This document shows, in pieces, positions 5,725 through 61,436 of a stretch of DNA of 64,000 nucleotides. The notes beneath the pieces were generated by a model. It did not search any database. It was not told the origin of the DNA and saw only the letters and a list, made by a program, of their open reading frames with translations. The stretch is taken from positions 124,001 through 188,000 of the forward strand of contig NZ_SMKV01000002.1 in NCBI RefSeq assembly GCF_004348445.1, in the 5' to 3' direction. Position numbers and translations under genes: made by a program. Each line of letters starts with the position of its first letter. The stretch's first letter is position 1. Source of the stretch: Saccharopolyspora aridisoli (lineage in GTDB: Bacteria > Actinomycetota > Actinomycetes > Mycobacteriales > Pseudonocardiaceae).

Positions 5725-5762
5725 GGGAACCTTCCTGCCGGGGAAGTGGCAGGAAGGTTCCC
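5725..5762. repeat. Perfect inverted pair of the dispersed GGAAGGTTCCC repeat; likely terminator of the symporter operon
   Basis: GGGAACCTTCCTGCC (5725-5739) and GGCAGGAAGGTTCCC (5748-5762) are perfect inverse copies, 15 bp, with an 8-base loop. The hairpin starts 18 bp beyond the leftward symporter stop. There is no T-tract. It is the clearest head-to-head pair of the window-wide repeat. Confidence 0.8.
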
Positions 5763-5779
5763 ATGCGCGGTACGGCCGA

Positions 5780-7345
5780 TCAAGAAGCTCCGATGCCGGT
5801 CAGCGACCGGACCTCCATCTCGTCAGCTCGGTCGTCGCTCTCGCGCTCCCCTAGCAGGGTGCCGATGTAGCCGAACAAGAACGACGCCGGAATCGACACC
5901 AAGCCGGGGTTGTTCAGCGGGAACCAGGCGAAGTCGACTCCGGGCACGATCGAGGTCGGGGTTCCTGAAACCACCGGGGAGGAGATCACCAGGAGCAGGC
6001 AGATGCCCAGGCCGCCGTAAACCCCCCACAAGGTTCCTCGGGTGTTGAACCGTCGCCAGTACAGCGAGTAGAGCAAGGTCGACAGGTTCGCCGACGCGGC
6101 GAAGGCGAAGGCCAGAGACACCAGGAACGCGAGGTTCTGCCCGTTCACCAGGATGCCGCCGATGATCGAGGTGGCACCGATGATCAGGGCTGTCAGCCGC
6201 GCCACCTTGACCTCGGCTCCCGGCTCGGCGTGCCCGCGTTTGATGACGTTGGCGTACACGTCGTGGGCGAAGGATGCCGATGCGGTCAGAGTCAGACCCG
6301 CCACCACGGCGAGGATCGTGGCGAAAGCAACCGCGGCGACCACTCCCAGCAGGACCGTTCCGCCGATTTCGTAGGCCAGCAGCGGCGCCGCGGAGTTCTC
6401 GCCGCCAGGGGCGGCCACGATCGAATCCGTCCCGCTGATCGCCCCCGCGCCGAACCCGATCACCAAGGTGCACAGGTAGAACACCGACATCGTGACGGTC
6501 GCCCACACCACGGAACGCCTCGCCTGCACGGCGTTGGGCACCGTGTAGAAGCGCATCAGCACGTGCGGCAGGCCGGCTACACCGAAGATCAGCGCCAAGG
6601 ACAGCGAGACGAGGTCGAGCTTGGTGATCTCGCTCTTCCCGTACTGGGTTCCGGGCGAGAAGATCCGCTCACCGAGCGGGTTCTTCTCGGCGGCGTGCTG
6701 CAGCAACGAAGTGATGCTGAATCCGAACTTGCCCATCAGGAACAGCGCCATGAGCGCGACGCACAGCATCAGGGCGACCGCCTTGATGATCTGCACCCAA
6801 GTGGTTCCCCTCATCCCACCCACGAGCACGTAGGTGATCATCAGCGCGCCGACGCCGGCGATCACCAGGGCTTGGCCGGCCGCGCTGTGCACGTCGAGCA
6901 GCAGTGCTACCAGGCTTCCGGCGCCGGCGATCTGCGCAACCATGTAGATGAGAGAGATCACCAGGGTCGACACCGCCGCAGCGGCGCGGACGGGACGCTG
7001 CTTCATGCGGTAGCTGAGCACGTCGCCCAGGGTGAATCGGCCTGTGTTGCGCAGTAGTTCTGCGACCAGGAGCAGGTTCACCAGCCACCCGACCAAGAAT
7101 CCGATCGAGTAGAGGAAACCGTCGTAGCCGTGCAAGGCGATGGCGCCCGCGATGCCGAGGAACGCAGCGGCTGACATGAAGTCGCCCGACAGGGCGATAC
7201 CGTTCTGCGCACCGGTGAATTGCGAGCCCGCTGCGAAGTAGTCGGTGGTGGATCCCGTGCTGCTCCCCCGGTAGACGATGAACAGCGTGAGCAGCACGAA
7301 CGCGGTGAATATGCTGATGTTGAGCATCGGGTCGGTGCCCATCAC
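5780..7345 (-). CDS. actP: Cation/acetate-type sodium:solute symporter (ActP/MctC-like)
   Basis: A 521-residue SSS-family membrane transporter with about 13 hydrophobic segments. Family marks include TTDYFAAGSQFTGAQNGIA, SGDFMSAAAFLGIAGAIALH and the conserved region around VLVGGMRGTTWVQIIKA. The close relatives ActP and MctC take up acetate, propionate or pyruvate with Na+ or H+. GTG 7345 overlaps the TGA of the upstream DUF485 gene, and an ATG at 7342 is equally possible. The DUF485-symporter pair is the usual actP arrangement. The substrate cannot be fixed from sequence alone. Confidence 0.9.
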   Translation of the reverse strand: MMGTDPMLNISIFTAFVLLTLFIVYRGSSTGSTTDYFAAGSQFTGAQNGIALSGDFMSAAAFLGIAGAIALHGYDGFLYSIGFLVGWLVNLLLVAELLRNTGRFTLGDVLSYRMKQRPVRAAAAVSTLVISLIYMVAQIAGAGSLVALLLDVHSAAGQALVIAGVGALMITYVLVGGMRGTTWVQIIKAVALMLCVALMALFLMGKFGFSITSLLQHAAEKNPLGERIFSPGTQYGKSEITKLDLVSLSLALIFGVAGLPHVLMRFYTVPNAVQARRSVVWATVTMSVFYLCTLVIGFGAGAISGTDSIVAAPGGENSAAPLLAYEIGGTVLLGVVAAVAFATILAVVAGLTLTASASFAHDVYANVIKRGHAEPGAEVKVARLTALIIGATSIIGGILVNGQNLAFLVSLAFAFAASANLSTLLYSLYWRRFNTRGTLWGVYGGLGICLLLVISSPVVSGTPTSIVPGVDFAWFPLNNPGLVSIPASFLFGYIGTLLGERESDDRADEMEVRSLTGIGAS

Positions 7346-7761
7346 GGCCGCTCCTCTCCGGTGGCGTTGCGGTAGAGCTCAGCGACGCGCGGGTCGATCT
7401 CCTTGGCCGCGAAGCGCAGGTAGAGGGCCGTGATGACGAGGGTGCTGATGAACTGGCCGATGCCGAGGGCAAGTCCGATGTTGACGGCGCCGAACAGTCG
7501 AATCCCCATGAGATCTGGGAAGTACGCGGCGAGGACGACGTAACCGACGTACCAGACCACGAACACCAGGGTCATCGGGAACGTGAACCTGCGCAGCGTG
7601 CCGCGCAATTCGAGGAATTCCGCACTGCGAGCGATGCTGCGGAAGTCGGGACCCGAGTCGCCGGGTACCGGGAGATCGATGCGCCTGGCTGATTTGTCGA
7701 TCTGACCGAAGGCCGCTTCAGTTCGTCGAGATGGCGACGGGGGTTCGGTGGCGTTGCGCAT
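7342..7761 (-). CDS. DUF485 membrane protein (YjcH-like partner of the symporter)
   Basis: A protein of about 139 residues with two transmembrane segments (FPMTLVFVVWYVGYVVLAAY and the stretch after NIGLALGIGQFISTLVITAL) after a polar N-terminus; this is the DUF485 layout. DUF485 genes sit directly before actP-type symporters and are presumed to help their assembly or function. I prefer ATG 7761, which follows GGAAGGA, over the in-frame ATG at 7788. Its TGA overlaps the symporter start, so the two are co-translated. Confidence 0.85.
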   Translation of the reverse strand: MRNATEPPSPSRRTEAAFGQIDKSARRIDLPVPGDSGPDFRSIARSAEFLELRGTLRRFTFPMTLVFVVWYVGYVVLAAYFPDLMGIRLFGAVNIGLALGIGQFISTLVITALYLRFAAKEIDPRVAELYRNATGEERP

Positions 7762-8595
7762 GCATCCTTCCAAGCAATCGGTCATCACATCGACGTGTTT
7801 CTGCGCCGATGCCGCTCAGTCCCCCAACATCGTCCGAACTCCCGCAGCTGTTCGCGGCCTTCCTTGATTCGGGTTCCGCCAGGAGTCGGTGACCGCACGA
7901 CTTGCGATGCCAACCAAGGCGGGAGTCTAACGATCACGCCGCTCCACTTGAACCACAGCAGCGACACAGCACACCAACTGATGAATTCTAAGATCACTGA
8001 CCGTGATTGAATCTGAAGGGAGCCCATGCCCCCTCGAGACCGGAACGGAATCAGGCCAGCTCGCAAAACGACACTTCAAGGTCCATTTTCCCTGGTCGAC
8101 CGCCTGATTAGGCGAGGGTAACACGATGCGAGCGAGGGGACATACGCATTGCTTCCGCCCCCTTTGTCACCCAGTCGGCGAAATTCTCTCCAATGGGTGA
8201 CTAAAGCGCATCCAACCTCCGCAGCAATGAACACGATCAGTGTCCAAAGTGCCCAATGAGCTCCCGCGCACCCGCGAAGATGATCTCCATCGACTCGAAG
8301 CCACTGGTCAGTGCGCTGAATCCAAAACAGGTGGAAGATCATTCCGGTGATGTAGTGTTCTGCACGCCGACGACCGGTGAGAACAATTCGATGCCACCGC
8401 GATCACCCCCGACATCGCAGCGACTATCGGATACCGCCGTCGAGACCGCACGGCCACCCGCGAGAACCCCCCGGAACGCAGGCAGCGCCGCCAACCACGA
8501 ATGACCTGCCGCGCCTCGGAGGCGGGCCGGTCCGCCCACCACACGAACGCGCAGTTGGCGATGAAAGCTTCGACCGCGCGGGAAAGGACTGCGTC
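7762..8595. other. Long intergenic region upstream of the conservon
   Basis: About 830 bp of visibly lower GC than its surroundings with no reading frame that resembles a known protein. A short inverted repeat, ATCAC-TGACC-GTGAT, lies at 7995-8009. GGAAAGGA at 8581-8588 is the ribosome-binding site of cvnA. It presumably contains the divergent promoters of the symporter operon and the conservon, but I cannot place them. Confidence 0.4.
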
Positions 8596-11535: not shown

Positions 11536-11567
11536 TCCCCGAATCAATCAGGAAGGAAGGAGGCGCC

Positions 11568-12008: not shown

Positions 12009-12015
12009 GGCGACG

Positions 12016-12749: not shown

Positions 12750-13382
12750 ATGAATCCTGATGCGCAAGCCCAACCCGAATACCCCCGCAGGTCCCCGCCG
12801 ACCACCTCCGCGAAAATCGTCGTCGCGGGTGGTTTCGGCGCCGGCAAAACCACGTTCGTCGGATCAGTGTCGGAAATCGTGCCGCTGACCACCGAAGCGG
12901 TCATGACCGAGGCCAGCCACGGCATCGACGACCTGCACGCGACACCTAACAAGCAAACCACGACGGTGGCCATGGACTTCGGTCGTCTGTCGCTGGAATC
13001 GAACCTGATCCTCTACCTGTTCGGCACGCCTGGTCAGCATCGGTTCTGGTTCATGTGGGACGACTTGGTGCGCGGAGCGATCGGTGCGGTCGTCCTCGTC
13101 GACACGCGCCGGCTGGCCGACTGCTTCTCGGCCATCGACTTCTTCGAGGATAGGGAACTGCCCTACATCGTTGGTCTCAACTGCTTCGACGGCAATCTTC
13201 AGCACCGGGTTCAGGAGGTCCGAGAGGCGATGGCGATCCCCGACCACGTTCTGATCGTCACCTGCGACGCCCGAAACCGGCAGTCCACCAAGCAGGCTCT
13301 GATTCGGTTGGTCGAATACGCGATGCGGTGGTGGATGCAGAAGCATCCGGAAGAGCAGGGGAGCCTTTCTGCCACCCGCTGA
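12750..13382 (+). CDS. cvnD: CvnD small GTPase
   Basis: A 210-residue Ras-like ATP/GTP-binding protein of the conservon class. The P-loop is GGFGAGKTTF (residues 27-36), the switch-II region is LFGTPGQHRFWFMWDDL, and VVLVDTRRL precedes LNCFDG, which takes the place of NKxD as in other CvnD proteins. It ends the operon. A large imperfect hairpin (13396-13455) just after the stop probably terminates transcription. Confidence 0.93.
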   Translation: MNPDAQAQPEYPRRSPPTTSAKIVVAGGFGAGKTTFVGSVSEIVPLTTEAVMTEASHGIDDLHATPNKQTTTVAMDFGRLSLESNLILYLFGTPGQHRFWFMWDDLVRGAIGAVVLVDTRRLADCFSAIDFFEDRELPYIVGLNCFDGNLQHRVQEVREAMAIPDHVLIVTCDARNRQSTKQALIRLVEYAMRWWMQKHPEEQGSLSATR

Positions 13383-13395: not shown

Positions 13396-13455
13396 GGTGG
13401 GTATGGGTACGTTCCGCCCGGCGGCTGGACTGACCGGAACGTTCCCATATCCACC
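13396..13455. terminator. Imperfect 20-bp hairpin after the conservon
   Basis: Arms 13396-13415 and 13436-13455 pair at 18 of 20 positions with a 20-base spacer. The right arm contains GGAACGTTCCCAT, a relative of the dispersed GGAAGGTTCCC repeat. It starts 14 bp after the cvnD stop, where a terminator is expected; there is no T-run. Confidence 0.6.
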
Positions 13456-13552
13456 CAGCGAGCCGGTAATCACCCACTCAGGTGAGCACGACACACGCAT
13501 CGACCGTGCCTGCTACACCAAATCGGCGCCTGATTTGCGGATAGTTCTACGC

Positions 13553-17191: not shown

Positions 17192-17251
17192 GCCTCAATG
17201 CTTGCACGCCAAGATCCCAACAGCGCGTGTTTCGCTACCGGCTGGAGCGAG

Positions 17252-17272
17252 GTGGCAGAAAGGCTCCTCTGC
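17252..17272. repeat. Variant copy of the dispersed repeat
   Basis: GTGGCAGAAAGGCTCCTCTG sits 6 bp past the leftward stop of the CPBP protease gene. Read in the transcript sense it is close to the GGGAACCTTCCTGCC form. Confidence 0.5.
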
Positions 17273-17277
17273 GCCGA

Positions 17278-18237: not shown

Positions 18238-18295
18238 GGAGGCATTTTGCCAAGGATTTCTGAGTTCTTGCTGAGTACGGCTCGATGGCACGAGA

Positions 18296-18337
18296 ATGGG
18301 GACCTTCGTGCCATTCACATGGCAGGAAGGTCCCCAT
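18296..18337 (-). terminator. 19-bp hairpin made of two inverse copies of the dispersed repeat, after the PBP gene
   Basis: Arms 18296-18314 and 18319-18337 pair at 18 of 19 positions with the 4-base loop TCAC. Both arms carry ATGGCA(G/C)GAAGGTCCCC or its complement. It lies 13 bp beyond the PBP stop at 18350. The tight loop and long stem make a terminator or 3'-end stabiliser very likely. Confidence 0.8.
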
Positions 18338-18349
18338 CCTCACATCCAT

Positions 18350-20473: not shown

Positions 20474-20729
20474 GCCAGCCCCTATCACCAAAGTGTCCGC
20501 AAGATCCGGCCGCCGACCGCGCCAAGTGGCGCGAACCCTCGCTCCCGCTCACCGATTCCAGCCGCCGGGAAGAACCACCGGCTTCCACTGCCCGGAAGCA
20601 ATCGGCATCCGTTTCGCTTTGCCGTCAACCAGTTCGTTGATATCACACCTGTCCGCGCGCTCAGCGTGCTGCCGAACAACTGAATTCGACTCGAAACCAA
20701 CACGGAAACAGGTCGAGCAACTACACTTC

Positions 20730-20750
20730 GTGACAGAAGGGTTCCCTTGC
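20730..20750. repeat. Dispersed repeat copy in the 5' region of the 20764 gene
   Basis: GTGACAGAAGGGTTCCCTTG is a close variant of the window-wide repeat, here placed 14 bp before a start codon rather than after a stop. Confidence 0.55.
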
Positions 20751-20763
20751 TCGCGGAGGAAAC

Positions 20764-21559: not shown

Positions 21560-21743
21560 GCACCCGATTCTAGGTGCTCCCGCTGTACGGCGACGGCCCG
21601 GCACCGCTGCCCCCGCGTCTCAGCCACTGTGCCCGACCTCGGTCGTCTGCCCGAGCCCAAGGAACTCCTGCTGGTGAATGCGCAGGTCAGAAAGGTCTTC
21701 TTCGATCGTGGCCGTGCGGCGGGTGATCGGGAGGTTCCCTCGC

Positions 21744-22913
21744 TCACGCCCACCGGCGGCCGGCCAGGGCGCGGCAGGCGAGCAGCAGTGCGCCCGTGAT
21801 CGCGAAGGTCACGGGGTAGCCGGATGCGGCGATGAGGACTCCGAACCCGATCGCGCCGAGTCCGTGACCTCCGTCGTAGGCGATGTTCCAGGCGGTGCTC
21901 GCGGTTGCCGAGTCGGCGCGTTCCAGCATGAGGATGAGGGTCGTGTTCTGAACGGCACCGAAGCCGGTGCCGAACACCGCCGCGCCTGCCAGCGCCACCG
22001 GGTCGGCAGTCCACGCGGCCAAGGCCAGCAGCAGCACTCCGAAGCCGCCGAACAGCACCGATGGCGCGAGGACGCCCTGCTGCCCGAATCGGTCTCCCAG
22101 GTGCCCGGCGAGCCACCGGCCGAGCATGGTGGCGGCGGCGAAGATCAACAGCGCTGGCGGTGCGACCGACGGGCTGACCGCCAGCGGCAGGAACGCCGTC
22201 AAACCCCCTGCCGCAGCCGTGTTGACCGCCATGACCGTCCAGGAGGGCAGCAGCGCGACCGGCCGGGCCTGCGTTCCTCGCTCCTGGTCGCGGATGCGCA
22301 CCCGCTCGATGCCCAGGATCGTCAGCGCGGCGAGGACGGGGATCGCACCGGCGGCCCAGAACAGGGGGCCGAACCCGATCCGGCCGCTCAACCACACCCC
22401 GGTAGGCAGGAGGGCTACGTTGGGCAGGCCGATGGCGAGGCCGTAGTAGGCGGCCGCCCGGCCTCGTTGTGCGAGGGGCACCAGTTCCGCGGTCAGCGCC
22501 GAGCCGGTGACCGTCAGCACCCCGAACCCGATTCCGCGCAGCGCCGAGACTCCGAGCAACACCCACATGTCGCTGGAGAGCGCGAACAGCGGTGTCGGCA
22601 GTCCGATCATCGCGGTTCCCAGGGCGAACAGCCCGCGGCAGTCCATCTTCCTGAGCAACCATGGCATCGCCAGCTGCGCGAGCACCGTGACCAGCATGAA
22701 CACCGCGTTCGTCGCACCCGCTGCGATCTCGCCCGCACCTCCGGCCACTGCCCACAACGGCACCACGGGCAGGAGCAGGGCATACCCGGAGAACCCTCCG
22801 ACCGTCGCGATCAGCAAGTAGCGGAACGAGCGCTGCCCTAGCGGGGTCCGGGATCCGGTCGAGAAGGGTGTACGCACCTGCTCTTGATAGGTGGTGGACC
22901 TTCGCCTGTCCAT
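21744..22913 (-). CDS. MFS transporter, probable drug/metabolite exporter
   Basis: A 389-residue major facilitator with 12 predicted segments, starting SFRYLLIATVGGFSGYALLL. The MFS motif-A-like loop is present as LLRKMDCRGLFALGTAM, and GRWLAGHLGDRFGQQG carries the second-half equivalent. The size suits the DHA-type 12-TM class. ATG 22913 has GAGG five bases upstream; longer frames upstream have no ribosome-binding site and would run into the divergent peptidase promoter. The substrate is unknown. Confidence 0.88.
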   Translation of the reverse strand: MDRRRSTTYQEQVRTPFSTGSRTPLGQRSFRYLLIATVGGFSGYALLLPVVPLWAVAGGAGEIAAGATNAVFMLVTVLAQLAMPWLLRKMDCRGLFALGTAMIGLPTPLFALSSDMWVLLGVSALRGIGFGVLTVTGSALTAELVPLAQRGRAAAYYGLAIGLPNVALLPTGVWLSGRIGFGPLFWAAGAIPVLAALTILGIERVRIRDQERGTQARPVALLPSWTVMAVNTAAAGGLTAFLPLAVSPSVAPPALLIFAAATMLGRWLAGHLGDRFGQQGVLAPSVLFGGFGVLLLALAAWTADPVALAGAAVFGTGFGAVQNTTLILMLERADSATASTAWNIAYDGGHGLGAIGFGVLIAASGYPVTFAITGALLLACRALAGRRWA

Positions 22914-23020: not shown

Positions 23021-24265
23021 ATGCAGAGATGGCAAGCACTGGCGTTGGCGGGTGTCGCGGTAGGCACCGCGCTGGTCCCCGCGACCGCAGGAGCACCACC
23101 GACCATGGCCGCACCACCCCCGTGCAGCGAGGAGCCTCGGGAGAACCCGATCACCGAGTTCACCAGCTACGACGAAATGCTGGTGGAGCTCGACCGCATC
23201 GAACGCGTCAGCGCCGGCCGCGTGGCCGTTGAAGACGTGGGCGCTTCCAACAAGGGCCGCGACGTGATGCTCGCGCGCGTGGGCACCGGGCCCAAGGTCG
23301 TGTTCGTCACGGCCGAGATCCACGGCAACGAGAAGACGGGCCCTGACGCCCTGCTCGACATCCTCGACTACTTGGGCACGTCGGACTCCACCACCGCGCA
23401 GCGAATCCGTGACCAGCTGACGGTGGTCGCCATGCCGAAGATCAATCCGGACGCCGGTTCTCTCGACCGGCGCGGCAACGACATGACCTGGCAGGAAGTT
23501 CAGTCCCGGTTCCCCCAGCTGGCCACGTCGCCACCACCGTGGAACTACATCACCGATCAGCGGCAGGGCGACGATTACTCGCATCGGCCGGGATTCGACG
23601 TCAACCGCGACTACCACCCGGACCTGGCGTACCAGCCGCAACCGCAGGACTTCCCCGGCAGCAGCGATCGGCCCGGCTGGTTCATCACCCCGGAGACGCA
23701 GACGGTCCGCGACGTCTACACGGGACTGCAAGCCGAGTTCGGTGCGGTTGACACCTATGTCGACCTTCATCATCAGGGAGCCTGCTACACGGTTCCCGGA
23801 ACTGACAGGTTCGTGACCATGAGCCTGTCCGGCAAGTTCGTCGCGGACCCGGATACGCCCGAAGGTGCCGCCTTCGCCGAGTTCGCCGACAGCTATCGCC
23901 CGGAGTACTCCAAGCAACTCAACGTCGCGGCTTACAACGCGCTTCAAGACGCTGCGGAGCGCAATCCCGACTTCGGCGACATCACGTTGTACCCGCAGGA
24001 CATCAACCTGCCCGGGACGGGTCTCGGAGCCTTCCAGCTCAACGGCAGCGGCGCCGTTCTGTTCGAAGTGCGCGGCCAGACCCAGACGCTCGGTGAACAA
24101 CACCGCGAAATGCTCACGCGGACCGTTTACATCGGTCTGGACGGGATCCTTTCGTCCATCGCCTCGGGCGAGGTGACCCAGCTCGACCCGGCCGCCTACG
24201 ACCAGATTCCGCCGACCGACCGCGGCCAGCGGACACTGCAGGGGACGACCGACATCGAGGACTGA
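23021..24265 (+). CDS. Secreted M14-family zinc carboxypeptidase
   Basis: A 414-residue exported metallopeptidase. A signal peptide (MQRWQALALAGVAVGTALVP, likely cleaved near ATAGA/AMAA) precedes an M14 domain. The first zinc ligands are H and E in TAEIHGNEKTGPDAL; the Arg/Asn region includes NPDAGSLDRRGND and DVNRDYHPD; the second zinc His is in VDLHHQGACY; a conserved Glu late in the domain (VLFEVRGQTQ) is the likely catalytic base. AAGGAG precedes ATG 23021. It probably trims peptides or cell-wall material outside the cell. Confidence 0.9.
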   Translation: MQRWQALALAGVAVGTALVPATAGAPPTMAAPPPCSEEPRENPITEFTSYDEMLVELDRIERVSAGRVAVEDVGASNKGRDVMLARVGTGPKVVFVTAEIHGNEKTGPDALLDILDYLGTSDSTTAQRIRDQLTVVAMPKINPDAGSLDRRGNDMTWQEVQSRFPQLATSPPPWNYITDQRQGDDYSHRPGFDVNRDYHPDLAYQPQPQDFPGSSDRPGWFITPETQTVRDVYTGLQAEFGAVDTYVDLHHQGACYTVPGTDRFVTMSLSGKFVADPDTPEGAAFAEFADSYRPEYSKQLNVAAYNALQDAAERNPDFGDITLYPQDINLPGTGLGAFQLNGSGAVLFEVRGQTQTLGEQHREMLTRTVYIGLDGILSSIASGEVTQLDPAAYDQIPPTDRGQRTLQGTTDIED

Positions 24266-24333
24266 TCCCGATCACCGCTGCGCTGTCGTTGACAACCAGC
24301 GGCGTGACTAGAGCGACCCGGGAATCGGGAGGA

Positions 24334-24352
24334 GGCAGGAAGGTTCCCATGC
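24334..24352. repeat. Dispersed repeat copy
   Basis: GGCAGGAAGGTTCCCATGC, a consensus-like copy between the convergent M14 peptidase and the Ala/Pro-rich gene. It has no partner arm here. Confidence 0.7.
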
Positions 24353-24408
24353 TCCGCAGGTACTCCACGCGACCTTCGGGCACGGGCGTGATGGTTCAGG
24401 AGAGCGGG

Positions 24409-27421: not shown

Positions 27422-27452
27422 AACCACCGCCGGGTGCGGGGTGCGGAGCGGT

Positions 27453-27473
27453 GCATGGGAACCTTCCTCCCAC
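27453..27473. repeat. Dispersed repeat copy after the TetR gene
   Basis: GCATGGGAACCTTCCTCCC lies 31 bp after the tetR stop, in the sense orientation seen after several other genes. Confidence 0.65.
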
Positions 27474-27605
27474 TGCCGCACCCCTGCCAACGCACAGACT
27501 TTCACTCGTTCGTGCTGCATTCGCCGCCTGCGGCTCAAGATCCTCTACAGCGTCTCCGATGTCGAGTCAGCCGTGCCAACACCCCCGACTCGAGGAGATC
27601 CAATC

Positions 27606-32408: not shown

Positions 32409-32457
32409 GTCAATGACCACCGCGCTGTCGGCCGGTTGGAGCAGAGCGGTGTTCCGA

Positions 32458-32472
32458 GCAAGGGAACCTTCC
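32458..32472. repeat. Dispersed repeat copy between fadA and glcF
   Basis: AAGGGAACCTTCCGATCACC is a shortened copy. Its orientation is the reverse of that usually seen after a leftward gene. Confidence 0.55.
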
Positions 32473-32546
32473 GATCACCACCCACCCACGAGCCCTGCAT
32501 GGGCTCAGCGATGGTGGTCGCCCTGCTCTCAACCTCTCAACGACGA

Positions 32547-37003: not shown

Positions 37004-38164
37004 TCAGCCTCCTGTCACCAGCACCGGAACCAGTTGTTCCGCGGCTGTCAGGGAACCGTGGTGACCACGCAGCTTCGACTCGCCGGGCTCGACCACCGAG
37101 CGAATCACCCCGGTCGTCCGCAGGATCGCCAGCACGTCACCGATGCGCGGGCTCACCACCGCAGACACAGGGCCGAAGTAGCCCTCGTCGATGGCCTGCT
37201 CCTTGGTGATCACCGCACCGCGCTCACCGATGGTGTCCCGCCACGCGGCGAGCACGTCGTCCCGCGCCCCTGGATGGGAGTAGACGTGGCGCACGCGCAC
37301 CTCGCCGCCGAGCAAGCGGACGCCGTCCAGCAGCGCGGGGTCGCTGTCGGCGTCGATCATCGCTGCCGGGTCCAGGTCGACCATGCCGTGGTCGGCCACG
37401 ACGCCGAGCACCACGCCTGGCGGTAGTCGTTCGGCCACCATCTGCACGAACGCGTCGATCTGCCTCAGCTGCATGCACCACTGGATCGACCCGGGCCCGT
37501 GGATGTGTCCGAGCAGGTCAACGCCGCTGTGGTAGCCGTAGCAGAGGGTGGGGCCCGGGCTGTGGGCCGCGTCGAGGAGCTCTGCGGCGAGGTCACCCAG
37601 CTCCCGCACTCCGCGGAACCGCCCGCCGCGCAACGAGGCCCTGGTCAGGCCGGACCCTTCGAAATGCCGGGGCACCGCGGTGCGGACGTCGACACCGGCG
37701 GCCACGGCGCGTTCCAGCACGGTCGTGTTGGGTTGCACCTGCTCCGGGGGCCATTGCTCCACCAGGCTGGCCCGCTCGCCATCGGGGCCGGTGGGAGAGC
37801 TGCGCACGGTCCAGCTCAGCGGGTGCAGCAGGCCACCGCCGGGTTCCGCGAACGTGTAGCCGACGAGTCCGTGTTCACCGGCGCACCGTCCGGTGGCCAG
37901 CGAGGTGATGCTGGTGACCGTGGTGGTGGGGAACCCTGCTGTCAGTGGCCGCGAGTGCTGCAAGCTCGCCAGGAACGGCGCATCGGATTCGTGCGCTCGC
38001 AGCAGCTCGTGCCCGAGCCCGTCGATCAGCAGCACCAGAGCGTTGCGGCAGGGTGGGATGCCGATGGTGTCGGTGTAGCGGTCGACACCCATCGCGGCCA
38101 GCATCGACGGCAAGACGTCGCGCAGCGCGCGGCCGTCGGGGTCGGGGGCGACGATCCACTCCAC
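37004..38164 (-). CDS. Alkaline phosphatase / nucleotide pyrophosphatase-family protein
   Basis: A 386-residue type I phosphodiesterase-like enzyme. Metal ligands and nucleophile region are visible: LVLLIDGLGHELL (first Asp), FPTTTVTSITSLATGRCAGE (Thr nucleophile), HSGVDLLGHIHGPGS and VVADHGMVDLD (Asp/His pairs). The substrate could be a nucleotide, phosphodiester or phosphonate. GTG 38164 follows AAGGAGG, so the longer upstream frame is rejected. It is 59 bp behind the acyl-CoA dehydrogenase gene and may share its transcript. Confidence 0.88.
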   Translation of the reverse strand: MEWIVAPDPDGRALRDVLPSMLAAMGVDRYTDTIGIPPCRNALVLLIDGLGHELLRAHESDAPFLASLQHSRPLTAGFPTTTVTSITSLATGRCAGEHGLVGYTFAEPGGGLLHPLSWTVRSSPTGPDGERASLVEQWPPEQVQPNTTVLERAVAAGVDVRTAVPRHFEGSGLTRASLRGGRFRGVRELGDLAAELLDAAHSPGPTLCYGYHSGVDLLGHIHGPGSIQWCMQLRQIDAFVQMVAERLPPGVVLGVVADHGMVDLDPAAMIDADSDPALLDGVRLLGGEVRVRHVYSHPGARDDVLAAWRDTIGERGAVITKEQAIDEGYFGPVSAVVSPRIGDVLAILRTTGVIRSVVEPGESKLRGHHGSLTAAEQLVPVLVTGG

Positions 38165-39366: not shown

Positions 39367-39405
39367 CTTCACGCTTCCTTCCGGTTGGTGGCGGGTGGCG
39401 CGAGG

Positions 39406-39425
39406 AAGGGAACCTCCCTGTCATC
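39406..39425. repeat. Dispersed repeat copy
   Basis: AAGGGAACCTCCCTGTCATC lies between the CaiB-type gene and the acyl-CoA dehydrogenase. Orientation is opposite to the common pattern for a leftward transcript. Confidence 0.6.
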
Positions 39426-42947: not shown

Positions 42948-42961
42948 CCGCAGGTCGCGAG

Positions 42962-42981
42962 CATGGGAACCTTCCTGCCAC
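42962..42981. repeat. Dispersed repeat copy after the ligase-like gene
   Basis: CATGGGAACCTTCCTGCCAC, consensus-like, 14 bp past the stop at 42947 and in the common sense orientation. Confidence 0.7.
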
Positions 42982-43016
42982 CCCGACCGAGCCGGTCGCC
43001 GGACCCGCGTGGGGTC

Positions 43017-43360
43017 TTACCGGCCGCGGTCACTCGTCGCGGCGGGACCAGTGGGTCGGTTTCCGGTGAGGGCCAGGCAGCCGATGGTGATCGCGGCGCC
43101 GAAGACCAGGTAGACCGAGGTGGGCCCGACTGCCCGCCGGAACCGGTCAGCAGTGCGGTGGCCACCACCGGGGACAAGCCGCCGTCGAGGACCGATCCGA
43201 TTCGGTTTCCCAGCGAAGACCGGTGTGGCGAACCTGGTGGGGGACAGTTCCGCGCAGAAGGCCGCCATCTGCCCGAACACCGCGAGGAAAGTTCCCACGA
43301 TGAGCTCACCTGGGTTGCTGCCGAGCCGGTCCGCCAGGTGTGAGAACAACAGCATGCGGG
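43017..43360 (-). pseudogene. Remnant of an MHS-type MFS transporter (C-terminal part)
   Basis: Fragments of one membrane protein appear in alternating frames: LLFSHLADRLG and AVFGQMAAFCAELSPTRF in one, SLGNRIGSVLDGGLSPVVAT in another, then VYLVFGAAITIGCLALTGN back in the first. This order is the C-terminal third of metabolite:H+ symporters (ShiA/ProP-like). At least two frameshifts and loss of the N-terminal two-thirds make it a pseudogene. The end reaches into the region left of 43030. Confidence 0.7.
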
Positions 43361-45207: not shown

Positions 45208-45251
45208 GGCCCGAGGTGATGACAGGAAGGTTCCCATCCACACCTCGGGCC
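45208..45251 (-). terminator. 11-bp hairpin with a dispersed repeat copy in its loop, after sdaA
   Basis: GGCCCGAGGTG (45208-45218) and CACCTCGGGCC (45241-45251) pair perfectly. The 22-base loop contains GACAGGAAGGTTCCCATCC. It starts 6 bp past the leftward sdaA stop. Confidence 0.75.
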
Positions 45252-50235: not shown

Positions 50236-50280
50236 GCGGACGGGCTGCGCGGAAGGTTCCCTTCTCCGCAGTTCGTCCGC
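50236..50280 (+). terminator. Hairpin with a dispersed repeat copy in its loop, after ald
   Basis: GCGGACGGGCTGCG (50236-50249) and CGCAGTTCGTCCGC (50267-50280) pair at 12 of 14 positions. The loop carries CGGAAGGTTCCCTTCTC. It has the same design as the hairpin after sdaA (45208-45251). Confidence 0.65.
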
Positions 50281-50723
50281 CCTGCTGTGGCAGGAAGGTT
50301 CCCCTGCGCACATCAACAGCGACGGGCTCGCCGGGAATTTGCGCCGAGTTCCAATTCGAATTGGTTGGTCGGTAACCGAGGTCGCGAATGCAGTGGAATT
50401 CCCGCATCCAGGAATCGGATTCACCGTGAAAAAGAAATCAGGGGCGGCCCGCTCAACCAGCCTGGGGGTCACCGGGAGCAGGCCGCCACTTTCAAGTGTA
50501 GGGGAAGATCGCCGGTTTGCCGACGACGTGAGCGAGCACTTCGCCGCCAATTGCCAGCCGAATCGATAACCACTCGATGGGGTGAGTCTGGTCGGGCTGC
50601 CGTGCAGGCGTGAACCCTCGATGCCGATGTCACCCATCGGAGTAACGGCGTGGTGACGGATCAACCGTCGCTCTCCAGCGGGAACTCCGACGCAGGAAAC
50701 GCGCTGACGGGTGGGAGAAAAAC
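50281..50723. other. Intergenic region with a repeat copy and a 14-bp palindrome
   Basis: About 440 bp with no recognisable gene. GTGGCAGGAAGGTTCCCCTG (50287-50306) is a dispersed repeat. CCAATTCGAATTGG (50351-50364) is a perfect palindrome in a locally AT-richer stretch. The promoter of the 50724 gene should be at the right end. Confidence 0.5.
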
Positions 50724-52354: not shown

Positions 52355-53208
52355 TGATCGGGCTGATCAAGGCCGAGTACCGGAAAATCTTCACCACCAG
52401 CCTGTGGTGGGCGCTGCTGATCCCCGTGGTGGTGCTGGGGTTCGCCGCCGGTTGGCTGGGCACCGCGTTCGGCGGGGTCATCGACATGGTCGAGGAGTTC
52501 AGCGCGTCACTCCCACTGGGTCTGCTGTCGGTGGCGCTGTCGACGAACTTCGGCACGATCTTCGCGCTCCTGTTCGGCGCGATGGCCTTCGCCAGCGAGT
52601 TCCGCGCCAAGACCATCACCACGACGTACCTCACCGCCAACCCGCGCAGCTCCGTGCTGTGGGCGAAGTTGATCGTCTGCGCAGGCATCGGAGTGCTCTA
52701 CGGACTGGCGAACGTGCTGTTCGCCAGCCTCGGCGCGTTGCTCGGTGCCGGCCACGACATGAGCAACTTCGGCGGGTTCACCAGCTGGCTCGGCGTCGGC
52801 GGAGCGGGCGTGCTGTCGATGTTGCTGTGGACGCTGCTCGGGGTCGGTTTCGGCGCGCTGATCGCCAACGCCGTACTGGTGGTCATCCTGCCGCTGGTCT
52901 ACAAGTTCGTGGTCGAGTTCATCCTGTCGATCAGCCTGATCGACAGCGCCGTGTCCGGGATCGAGCCCTACCTGCCCGGCTCAGCCGGCAACGGCATCGT
53001 GTCCAACCTGGCGGTACCGCTGTTCGTCTCCGCGGTTGCGGGCCCGAACGAACCGAACACACCGCGCGCCGCGTTCGAACTCCTGCACCTGTTCTTCGGC
53101 GGCAGCTACGGGCACCCGTGGTGGGCCAGCCTGCTGACGTTCCTCGGCTACACCGCGGTCTTCGTGGCCGGCGGTTGGTTCGTGGGCGCGCGGCGCGACG
53201 TGGCGTGA
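52354..53208 (+). CDS. ABC-2 type transporter permease
   Basis: A 284-residue membrane protein with six predicted helices: MIGLIKAEYRKIFTTSLWWA starts the ABC-2 pattern, then AVALST-type segments, AFASEFRAKTITTTYLTANP (cytoplasmic loop typical of ABC-2), and two long hydrophobic stretches. It pairs with the ATPase at 51362 in a two-gene exporter of unknown substrate. The ATG shares one base with the ATPase stop. Confidence 0.9.
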   Translation: MIGLIKAEYRKIFTTSLWWALLIPVVVLGFAAGWLGTAFGGVIDMVEEFSASLPLGLLSVALSTNFGTIFALLFGAMAFASEFRAKTITTTYLTANPRSSVLWAKLIVCAGIGVLYGLANVLFASLGALLGAGHDMSNFGGFTSWLGVGGAGVLSMLLWTLLGVGFGALIANAVLVVILPLVYKFVVEFILSISLIDSAVSGIEPYLPGSAGNGIVSNLAVPLFVSAVAGPNEPNTPRAAFELLHLFFGGSYGHPWWASLLTFLGYTAVFVAGGWFVGARRDVA

Positions 53209-53210
53209 GC

Positions 53211-53276
53211 AAGGGAACCTTGCTGTCACCCGGGCACCGCGTCGACCGAATGGCAGAAAGGTTCCCATCCTCACCC
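53211..53276 (+). repeat. Inverted pair of dispersed repeats after the permease gene
   Basis: AAGGGAACCTTGCTGTCACC (53211-53230) and ATGGCAGAAAGGTTCCCATC (53250-53269) are inverse copies pairing at about 15 of 18 positions with a 20-base spacer. It starts 2 bp after the stop and may terminate the exporter transcript. Confidence 0.65.
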
Positions 53277-53341: not shown

Positions 53342-56300
53342 GTGAGCGACTCCGAAAATCCCCGCCGTTCCCCCGGCGGCTGGATCCGTCGCCTCTTCGC
53401 CGCTTGTCGGCGCCACCCGGTCGCACTGGTGTTGGCGATGGGCGCCTCCGTGACCGCGGTGGGGTTGGAGGCACTGGTCCCGCTGCTGACCAAGCTCGCG
53501 GTCGATGACGCCGTGGCGCGCAGCACCGAGCGGCTGTGGTGGATCGTGGTCGTGCTCCTGGTGCTGGGCGTGTTCCGGTTCGCCGCCGCCTTCGTCCGCC
53601 GCTACAGCGCGGGCCGGCTGGCGCTGGACGTGCAGCACGACCTGCGGCGGGCGGTGTTCGCCGCCATGCAGCGTCTCGACGGCGGCAAGCAGGACGCGCT
53701 GCGCACCGGGCAGGTGGTGTCGCGTTCCATCAGCGACCTGCAGCTCGTGCACTCGCTGCTGTCGATGCTCCCGCTGGCGGCCGGCACAGCGGTGCTGGCC
53801 GTGTTCGCGATCGCGGCGATGCTGTGGCTGTCGCCGCTGCTGACCGTGGTGGCGCTCGTCGTGGCGCCGCTGATCGCCGTGGTCACCGCGCGCAGCAAGA
53901 AGAAGCTGTTCCCCGCCACCTGGTCGGCTCAGCAGCGCGCAGCCGACATCGCCCAGCACGTCGAGGAGACCGTCACCGGTGTGCGCGTGGTGAAGGGCTT
54001 CGGCCAGGAGGAGCGTGAGGTCGGCCGGCTCGACTCGCGGGCTCGGCGACTGTTCGCCGAGCGGCTGCGAGCCGCTCGGATGACGTCTCTTCCCGCAGCG
54101 AGCCTGGCGACGCTTCCCGCGGCCGGTCAGGTGGGCGTGCTGGGTCTGGGCGGCTGGCTGGTGTTCCAAGGTCAGGTGAGCTTGGGAACCTTCGTCGCAT
54201 TCGCCGGCTACGTGGCGATGCTGTCCGGTCCGGCCCGGATGCTCTCCAACGTGATGATCCAGGCCCAGCTGGCGAGGGCTGGGGTGGAGCGCATCCACGA
54301 GCTCACCGACTCGCAACCCGAGGTCGAGGAGAAGCCGGACGCCCGCTCGCTGCCCGAGGGCCCGCTGGAGGTCCGGCTGGACGAGGTCAGCTTCGGCTAC
54401 ACCCGGGACCAGCCGGTGCTCCAGGACGTGACCTTGCGCGTCAGCCCGGGCGAGACCGTCGCGCTGGTGGGGCCAGCGGGGTCGGGCAAGTCGACGGTGT
54501 CTTTGCTGCTTCCCCGGTTCTACGACGTCCACTCGGGGCGCATCGCGATCGGCTCCACGGACACCGACGAGACCTCCGACATCCGCGACCTTCGGCTGGA
54601 TTCCCTGCGCAGCGCGGTGGGGGTGGTCTTCGAGGAAGCGTTCCTGTTCTCCGACACCATTCGCGGCAACATCGCCTTCGGGCGTTCCGACGCGAGCGAG
54701 GACGACGTGATCGCCGCCGCCAAGGGCGCGGAAGCTCACGAGTTCATCACCGGCCTGCCCGACGGCTACGACACGGCGGTCGGCGAACGCGGCCTGACGC
54801 TGTCCGGTGGGCAGCGCCAGCGCGTGGCGCTGGCGAGGGCGCTGCTGTCGGACCCCAGGGTGCTGGTGCTCGACGATGCGACGTCGGCTGTCGATCCGGC
54901 GACGGAAGCCGCCATCCACGACACATTGCGTTCGGTGACCGCGCAGCGCACCACGCTGCTCATCGCGCACCGCCGCTCGACGCTGGCGCTGGCGGACAGG
55001 ATCGCCGTGCTCGACGAGGGGCGCGTCGTGGACATCGGCACCGAGGCTGAGCTGCGGGATCGGTGTGAGCTGTTCCGCTCGCTGCTGGCGGGGCCGGGGG
55101 AAACGATCGACGACCCGCGCGACCAGCACGCCGAGGCCTCCCCCGACGGCATCACCCCAGAGCTGTGGCCGCAGGAGCAGCCGCCGGAGTGGTCGGCCGA
55201 AGGTCCGTTGGTGGCTACAGCGGGCCGCCACGGCATGAGCACCACGTCGACTCCCCCCACGCCGGAGCTGGTGGAGGGCATCCGCGGTCTGCCGCCGACC
55301 CGCGACCTGCCTCAGGTGACGGGAACCGATCCCACCGCCCCGGACCCGGAGTTCCGGTTGGCGCGGCTGTTCCGGCCGATCCGGTGGGGGCTGCTGCTGA
55401 CGATCGCCCTCGTCGCCGGCGACGCGCTGACCTCGGTGCTGCTGCCGTCGCTGGTGCGGCACGGCATCGACAGCGGCGTCGGGAACGCGCACCTCAACGC
55501 GTTGTGGCTGGCCACGGGGCTGGCGGGACTGCTGGTCGCCGGCGGGTGGCTGGTGATCAGGCTCCAGACGGTGATCACCGCACGCACCGGCGAAACCCTC
55601 CTCTACGTGCTGCGGCTGCGCAGCTTCGCGCACCTGCAGCGACTCGGGCTGGACTTCTACGAGAGGGAGCTGGCCGGACGGATCATGACCCGCATGACCA
55701 CCGACGTCGACGCGCTGTCGACGTTCCTGCAGACGGGCCTGGCCACGTTCGTCGTCAGCGTGCTGACGCTGCTGGGCATCGCCGGAGCCCTGCTGATCAC
55801 CGACCCGTCGCTGGCGCTGGTGGCGATGGCGGTGCTGCCTGTCCTGGTGGTCGCCACCATCATCTTCCGCAGGGTCTCCTCCACCGCCTACGCCGAGGCC
55901 CGGGAACGGGTCAGCACCGTCAACGCAGACCTGCAGGAGAACGTCTCGGGCATGCGGGTGGCCCAAGCGCACCGCCGCGAGGGGCATGCGGCGAAGGCGT
56001 TCGCGCAGCGCAGTGACGCCTACCGGCGTTCCCGGCTGCGCGCGCAGCGCTACATCGCCACCTACTTCCCGTTCGTGGCGCTGCTGTCGGAGATCGCGCA
56101 GGCGGCGGTGCTGGGGGTCGGCGCTGCGCGGGTCGCTTCGGGCGCGCTGACGGCCGGTGTGCTGGTCGCTTTCCTGCTGTACCTGAGCCTGTTCTTCTCA
56201 CCTGTGCAGCAACTGTCCGGCGTCTTCGACGGGTATCAGCAGGCCAGGGTGGGTTTGCGGCGCATCGGCGACCTGCTGCGCACGCCGACGTCGGTGCCTG

Positions 56301-57109
56301 CCGCCACCGAGCCGGTGGCGGTGCCCGAACGGTTCCGCGGCGAGGTGGAGTTGCGGGCGGTTTCGTTCCGCTACCCCGGCACCGAGCAGTACGCGCTGCG
56401 GGAGGTGAACCTGCGGGTGCGACCTGGCGAGACGGTGGCGCTGGTCGGTGCCACGGGTGCGGGCAAGTCGACCTTGATCAAGCTGATCGCGCGGTTCTAC
56501 GACGTCTCCGAGGGCGCGGTGCTGGTCGATGGGACGGACGTGCGCGGCTACGACCTGGCCGCGTTCCACCAGCGGCTAGCAGTGGTGCCGCAGGAAGGGC
56601 ACCTGTTCACCGGCACCGTCGCCGACAACATCGCCTACGCCCGTCCCGACGCCGGGCCGGCCGAGGTGGAGGCGGCTGCCCGCGCGGTGGGAGCCCTTCC
56701 GGGGATCTCGATGCTGCCGCACGGGTTCCGCCAGGAGGTCGGTGAGCGCGGCCGGGGGCTGTCCGCCGGTCAACGCCAGCTGGTCGCGCTGGCCCGGGCT
56801 CAACTCGTGGACCCCGATGTGCTGCTGCTGGACGAGGCCACGGCCGCGCTGGATCCTGCGACCGAGTCGATGGTGGTGGCCGCCAGCGATCAGCTCGCCG
56901 CTCAACGCACCACTTTCGTCGTCGCGCACCGGCTGGGCACAGCTGCCCGCGCCGACCGGATCGTGGTGGTCGATGGCGGGCACATCGTCGAGCAGGGCGG
57001 GCACGAAGAGCTGTTGACCCGTCGCGGCCACTACGCCCGGCTGTGGCGGGCGGCCGACGCCCACGGCGGCGGGGTGGACGATGCCGCGGAGACGAGCAAC
57101 ATCGCGTGA
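53342..57109 (+). CDS. Fused four-domain ABC exporter (TMD-NBD-TMD-NBD)
   Basis: A 1255-residue single chain with two complete half-transporters. Half 1 (to ~620): six helices, Walker A GPAGSGKST, signature LSGGQRQRVALARALL, Walker B LVLDDATSAVD. Half 2 (from ~670): six helices, Walker A GATGAGKST, signature LSAGQRQLVALARAQL, Walker B LLLDEATAALD. In half 1 the catalytic Glu after Walker B is Asp, and in half 2 the signature is SAGQ instead of SGGQ, so the two ATP sites are unequal as in heterodimeric exporters. Drug or lipid export is probable. GTG start without a clear Shine-Dalgarno. Confidence 0.92.
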   Translation: MSDSENPRRSPGGWIRRLFAACRRHPVALVLAMGASVTAVGLEALVPLLTKLAVDDAVARSTERLWWIVVVLLVLGVFRFAAAFVRRYSAGRLALDVQHDLRRAVFAAMQRLDGGKQDALRTGQVVSRSISDLQLVHSLLSMLPLAAGTAVLAVFAIAAMLWLSPLLTVVALVVAPLIAVVTARSKKKLFPATWSAQQRAADIAQHVEETVTGVRVVKGFGQEEREVGRLDSRARRLFAERLRAARMTSLPAASLATLPAAGQVGVLGLGGWLVFQGQVSLGTFVAFAGYVAMLSGPARMLSNVMIQAQLARAGVERIHELTDSQPEVEEKPDARSLPEGPLEVRLDEVSFGYTRDQPVLQDVTLRVSPGETVALVGPAGSGKSTVSLLLPRFYDVHSGRIAIGSTDTDETSDIRDLRLDSLRSAVGVVFEEAFLFSDTIRGNIAFGRSDASEDDVIAAAKGAEAHEFITGLPDGYDTAVGERGLTLSGGQRQRVALARALLSDPRVLVLDDATSAVDPATEAAIHDTLRSVTAQRTTLLIAHRRSTLALADRIAVLDEGRVVDIGTEAELRDRCELFRSLLAGPGETIDDPRDQHAEASPDGITPELWPQEQPPEWSAEGPLVATAGRHGMSTTSTPPTPELVEGIRGLPPTRDLPQVTGTDPTAPDPEFRLARLFRPIRWGLLLTIALVAGDALTSVLLPSLVRHGIDSGVGNAHLNALWLATGLAGLLVAGGWLVIRLQTVITARTGETLLYVLRLRSFAHLQRLGLDFYERELAGRIMTRMTTDVDALSTFLQTGLATFVVSVLTLLGIAGALLITDPSLALVAMAVLPVLVVATIIFRRVSSTAYAEARERVSTVNADLQENVSGMRVAQAHRREGHAAKAFAQRSDAYRRSRLRAQRYIATYFPFVALLSEIAQAAVLGVGAARVASGALTAGVLVAFLLYLSLFFSPVQQLSGVFDGYQQARVGLRRIGDLLRTPTSVPAATEPVAVPERFRGEVELRAVSFRYPGTEQYALREVNLRVRPGETVALVGATGAGKSTLIKLIARFYDVSEGAVLVDGTDVRGYDLAAFHQRLAVVPQEGHLFTGTVADNIAYARPDAGPAEVEAAARAVGALPGISMLPHGFRQEVGERGRGLSAGQRQLVALARAQLVDPDVLLLDEATAALDPATESMVVAASDQLAAQRTTFVVAHRLGTAARADRIVVVDGGHIVEQGGHEELLTRRGHYARLWRAADAHGGGVDDAAETSNIA

Positions 57110-57650
57110 GGAAGGGACCCTTCACCTCACCTCCTCCACCCGGCGAGCTGACGGGAAGATTGCTCGCATGACACCGCGAGGTCGCTTCCAGGTGTGAGGA
57201 AGGGAACTTCTCCGTCACGATCGCCACGCCACGTGTCGCCACGTGCGCGCAACGAAGCCGAACAGGCACTCGTCGGGCGTTTCTGACCAGGCAAACCGGG
57301 CGATGAGGCCGACGGCGCGGGGCCGATCCCAGGATGCGAACCGGTCCGGCTACGAGTTGAGAGCACAGCGTGTCGGTGAAACGCCATAATGAACGGGTAC
57401 GACAACCCGTATGGACTAGTGCCAAGCGGCGCTGATCAGCGAACGACGCACACCAGGGGCGGTTGATGTTCGGTCGGATGGCCCGAACGGGGGTACATCC
57501 CCCCTGGCCGGACGATCCTGATCGATTCTGTGAGGAGAGTCGATCAGCCGAACGGCCGTCCTGTGTGTCAACCTCGCGAATCGGGCGGCTAGCCTGGTAC
57601 CCGAGTGTGTCTGTAAATCACGAGCATATGGATCGAGGCGAACGCCAGCC
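57110..57650. other. Region between the ABC exporter and kgd, with repeats and an inverted repeat
   Basis: About 540 bp, no gene. Two variants of the dispersed repeat flank its left part: GTGAGGAAGGGACCCTTCAC (57106-57125, stem with CCTCAC) and GTGAGGAAGGGAACTTCTCC (57193-57212). ACGGGT-ACGACA-ACCCGT (57393-57410) is a perfect 6-bp inverted repeat. The kgd promoter should lie right of it. Confidence 0.5.
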
Positions 57651-60600: not shown

Positions 60601-61334
60601 TCTTCAACGGCGCACAGTCGATCATCGACGAGTTCATCTCGTCCGGTGAGGCCAAGTGGGGCCAGCGCTCCGACGTGGTGATGCTGCTCCCGCACGGCCA
60701 GGAGGGCCAGGGCCCGGACCACAGCTCGGGTCGCATCGAGCGGTGGCTGCAGCTGTGCGCTGAGGGCTCGATGACGGTCGCGATGCCGTCGACCCCGGCG
60801 AACTACTTCCACCTGCTGCGTCGGCACGCCTTGGACGGCATCCACCGTCCGCTGGTGGTGTTCACGCCGAAGTCGATGCTGCGCCTGAAGGCCGCCACGA
60901 GCCCGGTCGAGGACTTCACCGAGGGCAAGTTCACCTCGGTGATCGACGACCCGACCCAGCCGGACCCGTCGCAGGTCACCAAGCTGGTGCTGTGCACCGG
61001 CAAGCTCTACTACGAGCTGGCGGCCCACCGCGACAAGAACGGCATCACCGACACCGCGGTCGCGCGGCTCGAGCAGCTCTACCCGCTGCCGCACCGCAAG
61101 TTGGGCGCGCTGTTCGAGCGGTACCCGAACCTGGAGTCGGTCCGCTGGACGCAGGAGGAGCCGGCCAACCAGGGTGCGTGGCCGTTCCTGGGCTTGGCGC
61201 TGAACGAGCAGTTCCCGGAGCTGGTCGGCAAGCTCAAGCGGGTCTCGCGTCGTCCGATGGCCGCTCCGGCCACCGGTCTGGCCAAGGTCCACGAAGTCGA
61301 GCAGGCCGAGGTCGTGCAGACCGCGTTCGCCTGA
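57651..61334 (+). CDS. kgd: Kgd, multifunctional 2-oxoglutarate dehydrogenase E1 / succinyltransferase
   Basis: A 1227-residue fused enzyme of the TCA cycle. Residues 1-40 ([20 protein letters not shown]) are the E1 N-terminal segment; 41-115 is a Pro/Ala linker with no lipoyl domain; 116-360 is an E2-type acyltransferase with the active-site [15 protein letters not shown]; the rest is the thiamine-diphosphate E1 ([58 protein letters not shown]). It decarboxylates 2-oxoglutarate, feeding the E2/E3 complex. Standard for actinomycetes. Ends with a strong terminator. Confidence 0.97.
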
Positions 61335-61343
61335 TCTTCTCGC

Positions 61344-61390
61344 TGAGGCGGGCCGCCGGTTCCTTCGGGAGCCGGCGGCCCGCTCTTTCG
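61344..61390 (+). terminator. Strong terminator after kgd
   Basis: GCGGGCCGCCGG (61348-61359) and CCGGCGGCCCGC (61372-61383) pair perfectly; four more inner pairs around a TTCG tetraloop extend the stem to 16 bp, and TCTTTCGT follows. It begins about 14 bases after the stop. Confidence 0.9.
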
Positions 61391-61417
61391 TGCTCGGGTG
61401 CCGTCGGCGGAGTGCGC

Positions 61418-61436
61418 ACGGGAACCTCCCGCTCAC
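61418..61436. repeat. Dispersed repeat variant after kgd
   Basis: ACGGGAACCTCCCGCTCAC, a variant copy in the common sense orientation. Confidence 0.55.

Follow-up and report, generated by a model that had tools for sequence, protein, structure and literature searches.

What is the short sequence that recurs in gap after gap of the window analysed here, a stretch of 64,000 nucleotides from the draft genome (6.01 Mb) of Saccharopolyspora aridisoli (positions 124,001 to 188,000, forward strand, of contig NZ_SMKV01000002.1, which comprises 282,869 bases), and which protein reads it? An earlier note, made from the window by itself, had listed a dispersed repeat and proposed a 3'-end signal, an element like the repetitive extragenic palindromic (REP) sequences, or a protein-binding site. 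The repeat is real. Its core, GGAAGGTTCCC, was found 22 times in the window with at most one mismatch, compared with 1.05 expected from 100 dinucleotide shuffles (maximum 3), and the full motif spans about 25 bp, reading GGTGACAGGAAGGTTCCCATGCTCGC or close to it. A scan with a position weight matrix (PWM) of 26 columns, refined on the same contig, revealed 28 sites, and 21 of the 22 coordinates listed in the note fall on one of them at a tolerance of about 20 bp, position 36882 being the sole miss. Their mostly intergenic placement also held, for 22 of the 28 sites according to our own gene caller, a simple codon-bias script, and for 338 of 356 sites over four segments taken together, as did a genome-wide count above background, with 44 exact cores against 2 for a reversed control pattern. 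The observation of a dispersed repeat is thus confirmed, while its interpretation is partly supported.

The main property of the sites, invisible from the window alone, is their confinement to one chromosomal segment. In S. aridisoli itself (G000 in our numbering of genomes), 37 of the 44 exact cores lie on the window's contig (C23). All 77 exact cores of G008 fall within 190 kb of 5.78 Mb, 80 of 86 in G001 within 288 kb, 31 of 33 in S. rosea (G017) within 243 kb, and 85 of 86 in G119, a member of another genus, within 122 kb. In these four near-complete genomes the site-bearing segment is syntenic and comprises 120–290 kb, about 2–5% of the genome; p values for confinement refer to a region defined by the sites themselves. 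Arbitrary stretches from other parts of G008, G001 and G017, 360 kb in total, contained no PWM site, and the stretches of G000 used as outside (105,635 bases, 10 PWM sites) had been fetched for holding a core and form an unfair background. The segment is ordinary core genome with a gene order conserved in three genera, on which ground a mobile island was rejected, and in three genomes it lies 0.84–1.44 Mb from dnaA (13–19% of a chromosome taken as circular), at neither origin nor terminus; a terminus location, favoured at first from the mid-contig position in G001, was discarded once dnaA had been placed. The exact core is present in 21 of 22 genomes of the genus Saccharopolyspora, and in a sample of the Pseudonocardiaceae its 16-base form was found in 8 of 120 genomes and 4 of 46 genera, one of these with a single hit. 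Shifted forms of the motif (GGAAAGTTCCC or AAGTTCCC) occupy the same segment in G034, G012 and G015. The site family is missing from the segment of G098, which belongs to the genus of G119, and from the 60 kb of it read in G013, a Saccharopolyspora; stretches of four further genera (G054, G042, G024 and G037) likewise revealed none, at a partial cover in which only 18–32 genes of C23 were matched.

A candidate for the protein that reads the sites is encoded in the midst of them, by a gene for an AbiEi-like DNA-binding protein (Table 1). The gene is syntenic in six sited segments, absent from the matching place in G098, and lies between the 42nd and 67th percentile of site positions in all six, with the reservation that the leftmost sites of G034 may fall outside the stretch read. 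Scoring at most 57 candidates per genome in 39 genomes, we found orthologs above 345 bits in 20 of 22 Saccharopolyspora genomes, in G034 and in G119; there was none in G013 (57 of 65 candidates scored), and G098 and G066 displayed only a distant paralog elsewhere, so that site family and ortholog are jointly absent from G098 and, for the 60 kb read, from G013. Upstream of the gene, a site is present in all 22 orthologs and an inverted pair in 20, at an offset of 26–28 in 15 of them and widened to about 76–78 in five, the window's included. As a control, 360 other genes from the six segments were scanned just as leniently, and 61 of them revealed an upstream site and 31 a pair. Orthologs in every one of the six segments were available for 83 gene groups, of which only that of the binder gene carries the pair in 6/6, the next reaching 4/6 and the rest two at most; for this ranking the coordinates of the binder orthologs had been assigned manually and reciprocal best hits defined the remaining groups, and the pair counted for G000 includes a weak half-site. 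The binder was chosen after its upstream sites had been seen, and the rankings and the 360-gene control came later. Genes 67–74, which occur in sited genomes and are missing from the G098 stretch, were also considered as binders, but are mostly metabolic by eye and were rejected. Between the sites and the start codon (window 13454–13552), a block resembling CGACACRCG and, immediately ahead of the ATG, a box resembling GATAGT are common to most aligned orthologs (three alignment rows were misoriented), perhaps as a leaderless promoter.

The predicted structure of the protein provided further insight into its relatives. The long form, 319 amino acids in S. rosea, was modelled with a pLDDT of 85, and Foldseek matched this model to Rv2827c (1zel, E 1.3e-05) and to the AbiEi of Streptococcus agalactiae (6y8q, E 1.7e-04). 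Its C-terminal part matched the catalytic domain of the homing endonuclease I-Bth0305I (3r3p, E 0.027, TM-score 0.78 on the target), which is suggestive of a likeness to Vsr/homing-endonuclease folds. Pfam agreed weakly: AbiEi_1 passed the cut-off in the G020 paralog only and AbiEi_4 in the G098 paralog only, and the MTES_1575 endonuclease model stayed below it in two family members. Five orthologs keep the long form (G017, G119, G034, G012 and G015), among them that of S. rosea and those of two further genera of the family; a putatively catalytic E-x-D motif is present in the first four and lost in G015. The remaining 17 of the 22 orthologs (17 of 20 in Saccharopolyspora), including that of the window, comprise 218–249 amino acids, and their C-terminal domain is gone; the window protein was modelled as a compact fold of residues 10–200 with a low-confidence tail.

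Aligned sites are conserved between species. Over 13 pairs of Saccharopolyspora loci (about 20 kb each, all with the short protein, and with loci in common between pairs), aligned site bases were 89.7% identical, compared with 79.5% in flanks within 60 bp, 84.9% in other intergenic DNA and 89.1% in coding DNA, and sites exceeded other intergenic DNA in 12 of the 13 pairs. The 11 core columns are 91–100% identical, with one exception at 81%; columns just outside the core show 65–85%, except for 85–94% at positions 6–15 bases ahead of the motif, which are often taken up by a partner site. The three short-protein segments that were read keep 93–130 sites over about 200–290 kb.

Paralogs of the candidate protein carry repeats of their own. 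At nine paralog loci, a subset of all paralogs found, both flanks were searched for a common repeat, which eight of them displayed with scores of 19–83; the ninth had a score of 10, and none of 120 control genes exceeded 15. The loci of G098 and G066 are near-identical, their repeat has its core in common with that of G020, and the paralog-flank repeats inspected are inverted repeats. Both families searched genome-wide are largely dispersed: for the near-palindrome GCGAACGGNCCGTTCG there were 97, 34, 32 and 10 hits, both strands included, in G020, G098, G066 and G119, and for TATGAAAGGTCCTTTC 16 hits on 7 contigs in G036. A further case was seen in G013, where a distant AbiEi-nuclease paralog near kgd (C77, L161, 3885–5082) is flanked on either side by a repeat of its own, TCGTGAGTGGCGATGG; this genome has no site cluster.

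We lean towards regarding the sites as binding sites of the AbiEi-like protein, within a system resembling REPINs (REP doublets forming hairpins) that was built on a nuclease other than a RAYT (REP-associated tyrosine transposase) and was domesticated into a local chromosome mark. Under this model, the protein encoded in the window would bind the repeats, and the long protein class would spread or maintain palindromic repeats in the manner of REPINs, in place of a RAYT transposase, which suits the largely paired, inverted arrangement at a constant offset of the sites in long-protein genomes. Most Saccharopolyspora orthologs would then have shed the C-terminal domain while retaining the DNA-binding part and the upstream sites, and the short protein would act as a local, non-coding mark whose sites lie mostly away from promoters. 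It would probably bridge or condense the segment around its own gene, and may autoregulate through the upstream sites. The local architectural role is our inference from the restriction of the sites to one segment, their positions relative to genes and their conservation. Binding, nuclease activity, a spread driven by the nuclease and a function at the level of the domain are proposed rather than observed, with direct binding, nuclease activity and domain function as the weakest links. Of the three ideas in the earlier note, the protein-binding site is the best supported, given the core columns conserved between species and a candidate binder mid-segment with a site upstream of its own gene. 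The REP-like idea stands as far as REPIN-type inverted pairs and paralogs with a common repeat on both sides are concerned, and falls short in that no RAYT-type domain was present in the scanned proteins. Both are partly right and are joined in our model, whereas the 3'-end reading fails.

That sites act as transcription terminators or mRNA 3'-end signals is a proposal to which we give hardly any credence, in spite of some features in its favour. In tandem gaps, the sites lie a median of 41–86 bp past stops, convergent gaps are enriched (97 of 338 intergenic sites, about 59 expected), and the two inverted pairs tested fold strongly as RNA (z -6.7 and -4.7 against shuffles). However, a general tendency for transcripts of upstream genes to read GGGAACCTTCC was not confirmed: tandem gaps of the four segments held 90 co-directional and 110 opposite sites (p 0.18), which is no clear bias, though G001 alone displayed 26 against 46. 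Three single sites tested folded no better than shuffles, and the sites are confined to about 2–5% of the genome, though genes elsewhere also require 3' ends; on strand, folding and confinement this reading was rejected. It is also very improbable that the sites are operators of a regional regulon, with an AbiEi-like repressor controlling many genes of the segment. The conserved sites upstream of the binder's own gene would suit such a role, but divergent promoter gaps are depleted, holding 41 of the 338 intergenic sites against about 102 expected from their share of intergenic bases, and sites in tandem gaps are nearer to stops than to starts, from which their median distance is 124–187 bp.

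A more serious rival, which we nevertheless hold to be rather unlikely, assumes selfish REPIN-like elements hopping locally: the nuclease would copy paired sites into nearby gaps without any host function, and single sites would be decaying remnants. The inverted pairs of long-protein genomes have a fixed offset that speaks for it, 75 of 78 pairs in three such genomes being at offset 26 (in the 26-column frame; 24–25 bp between core centres), as opposed to 5 of 24 in three short-protein genomes; pairs common by descent are not independent in these counts. Local hopping is also in keeping with the repeats that flank paralogs on either side, with 33 cases in G119 of neighbouring sites exactly 29 bp apart, and with five site differences shown between close relatives. 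On the other hand, both of the other families searched occur largely dispersed over their genomes; in species whose protein has no nuclease-like domain, aligned sites were better conserved than their flanks in 12 of 13 pairs; and the segment and its centre are maintained across three genera.

Several results weigh against the domesticated binding system that we favour. For GCGAACGGNCCGTTCG in G098, 5 of 21 places among the matches listed lie within 27 kb of the paralog, so that this other family is partly clustered near its own gene, which fits plain local spread. A clustered variant motif had been predicted for G036 and G061, whose homolog lies 114–200 kb from kgd, and was rejected for G036, where the repeat is spread over 7 contigs. 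G020 is an exception to the joint occurrence of sites and gene, with 41 exact cores (C1 and C2) and, among the 57 of its 74 candidates that were scored, no ortholog exceeding 306 bits; this may reflect a recent loss, or a gap in the assembly or the search. G098, G066 and G013 still contain 8, 7 and 9 scattered exact cores, and the Pfam AbiEi models stayed below cut-off for the window protein. One of the 13 locus pairs did not show sites above other intergenic DNA, and when unaligned bases are counted as mismatches, sites are barely higher than other intergenic DNA (75.0% against 73.4%); site gain and loss therefore occur too. Arrays and pairs common by descent inflate the pooled figures. The distances between same-strand neighbours (direct repeats), which fall close to multiples of 10.5 bp (n 101; p 0.002 in G001 and 0.01 in G008), speak for the model, but such phasing was not seen in S. 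aridisoli (n 13, p 0.87). Finally, the spacing of inverted sites, at 24–26 bp between centres depending on the site end chosen, is close but not identical to that of AbiEi, whose two inverted repeats of 23 bp are separated by 3 bp (PMC7319586).

Comparison with known systems helps to place the segment. With AbiEi proteins (type IV toxin-antitoxin; AbiEi, Rv2827c) the candidate shares the predicted fold and inverted repeats upstream of its own gene; it differs in dozens to about 130 further sites and in the extra nuclease-like domain of some relatives. The two neighbours of the binder gene in the window were assigned by Pfam to ATP_bind_1 and patatin proteins, and neither of these two is a DUF1814 toxin gene. 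REP sequences and REPINs (PMC2817692 and PMC3116915) are short extragenic palindromic repeats, often in inverted pairs, with a RAYT gene flanked by its own repeats, and a similar layout is seen in our inverted pairs and in the paralogs flanked on both sides by a common repeat. Inverted doublets characterise G034, with 28 pairs among 61 sites, and are less prominent elsewhere (7–9 pairs among 93–130 sites in three short-protein genomes). Unlike RAYTs, the candidate resembles AbiEi, and the domain similar to homing endonucleases that some relatives carry is missing in most of the genus; a Pfam domain of Y1 (IS200/IS605-type) transposases was not found in the window protein or in 12 family proteins, the scan covering these proteins and not RAYTs genome-wide. 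The window's site family is confined to one segment, in contrast to genome-dispersed REPINs, which the two paralog families resemble in being largely dispersed.

The closest parallel at the level of the chromosome is MatP/matS (and MaoP/maoS), where a specific sequence is repeated over one region and has a dedicated reader, for which we have a candidate here. For matS, PMC5023128 gives 23 copies in 800 kb of the Ter macrodomain, read by MatP. Our segment has much denser sites, a binder of another predicted fold (AbiEi) whose gene lies near the centre of the region, and a position at 13–19% of the chromosome from dnaA instead of the replication terminus. The sites differ from FtsK orienting polar sequences (KOPS) in lying in one segment and not genome-wide; a mild polarity along the replication fork was displayed by the exact cores of G008, G001 and G000 (62%, 63% and 68% pointing one way; p 0.04, 0.02 and 0.02, the fork direction of G000 having been set by synteny), but not by those of G017 (42%). 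As a separate observation, the segment of G119 (L104–L111) contains tandem site arrays, with runs of up to four and with six copies in a single gap. Judging by titles and the starts of abstracts, we found no open-licence paper on the repeat or on a repeat system with an AbiEi-nuclease protein, which is weak evidence of absence, and by title none on the 11-mer in bacterial genomes; PMC3610266 deals, in part at least, with other features of S. erythraea.

All sites of the window and the candidate binder gene are given in Table 1.

Table 1. Repeat sites and proposed binder gene in the window (window coordinates; PWM, position weight matrix score).
Feature	Position	Strand	PWM	Remarks
Gene for AbiEi-like DNA-binding protein, 247 aa	13553..14296	+		Proposed cognate binder; nuclease-like domain absent; based on ortholog profile, models, fold search, upstream site
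Left site upstream of AbiEi-like gene	13351..13376	-	27.6	Overlaps 3' end of preceding gene; putative operator
Right site upstream of AbiEi-like gene	13429..13454	+	21.8	78 bp from left site; putative operator
Site, half of inverted pair	5717..5742	-	24.9	Pair with 5745..5770 folds as hairpin
Site, half of inverted pair	5745..5770	+	33.0	
Site	17251..17276	+	21.3	
Site, half of inverted pair	18290..18315	-	22.1	
Site, half of inverted pair	18318..18343	+	28.7	
Site	20729..20754	+	30.8	Divergent gap
Site	21722..21747	+	28.0	
Site	24331..24356	+	31.0	Convergent gap
Site	27449..27474	-	33.3	
Site	32454..32479	-	32.3	
Site	36817..36842	+	27.4	
Site	39400..39425	-	33.3	
Site	42957..42982	-	37.2	Convergent gap
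Site	45218..45243	+	36.4	
Site, direct pair	50244..50269	+	23.1	42 bp apart from 50286..50311
Site, direct pair	50286..50311	+	31.1	With 50244..50269
Site, half of widened inverted pair	53205..53230	-	35.7	
Site, half of widened inverted pair	53249..53274	+	35.9	
Site	57106..57131	-	23.8	
Site	57194..57219	-	26.4	
Site	61412..61437	-	28.4	
Possible site	54176..54201	-	27.0	Within called gene; lower trust
Weak match	1226..1251	+	16.5	Intragenic; may be chance
Weak match	24135..24160	-	18.2	Intragenic; may be chance
Weak match	37921..37946	-	17.0	Intragenic; may be chance
Weak match	43279..43304	+	16.1	Within called gene; may be chance

Besides the sites, the window contains a phenylacetate-type gene block at 340–5193 (paaZ, paaK and a TetR regulator by similarity). 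The part of C23 that holds it, at about 118–129 kb, had no reciprocal best hits in the other segments read and appears to be an insertion into the syntenic segment. Other palindromic sequences were encountered in the corresponding segments of further genera. That of G037 (L151–L156 joined) displayed tandem 22-bp arrays and inverted pairs of GGCCAACACGAGGTAC at about 48.3–48.6 and 72.9–73.1 kb, and that of G024 (L144–L150 joined) inverted pairs of an GATCAGCACTCACGAC-like sequence at about 71.8, 103.3 and 118.6 kb, another possible palindrome family.

In its most far-reaching form, which we put forward tentatively and with some doubt, our model describes a selfish repeat-nuclease element of a class unrelated to RAYTs that was domesticated in Actinobacteria, so that its protein would mark and organise the 100–290 kb round its own gene through about 100 conserved sites, in the manner of a macrodomain. 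If true, a second, independent protein class would stand behind the REP-like palindromic repeats of bacteria, and such an element would have come to mark one particular region of the chromosome. With the binder encoded at the centre of a dense site array, the segment would then offer a direct way to ask how a protein acts locally in a cell without compartments.

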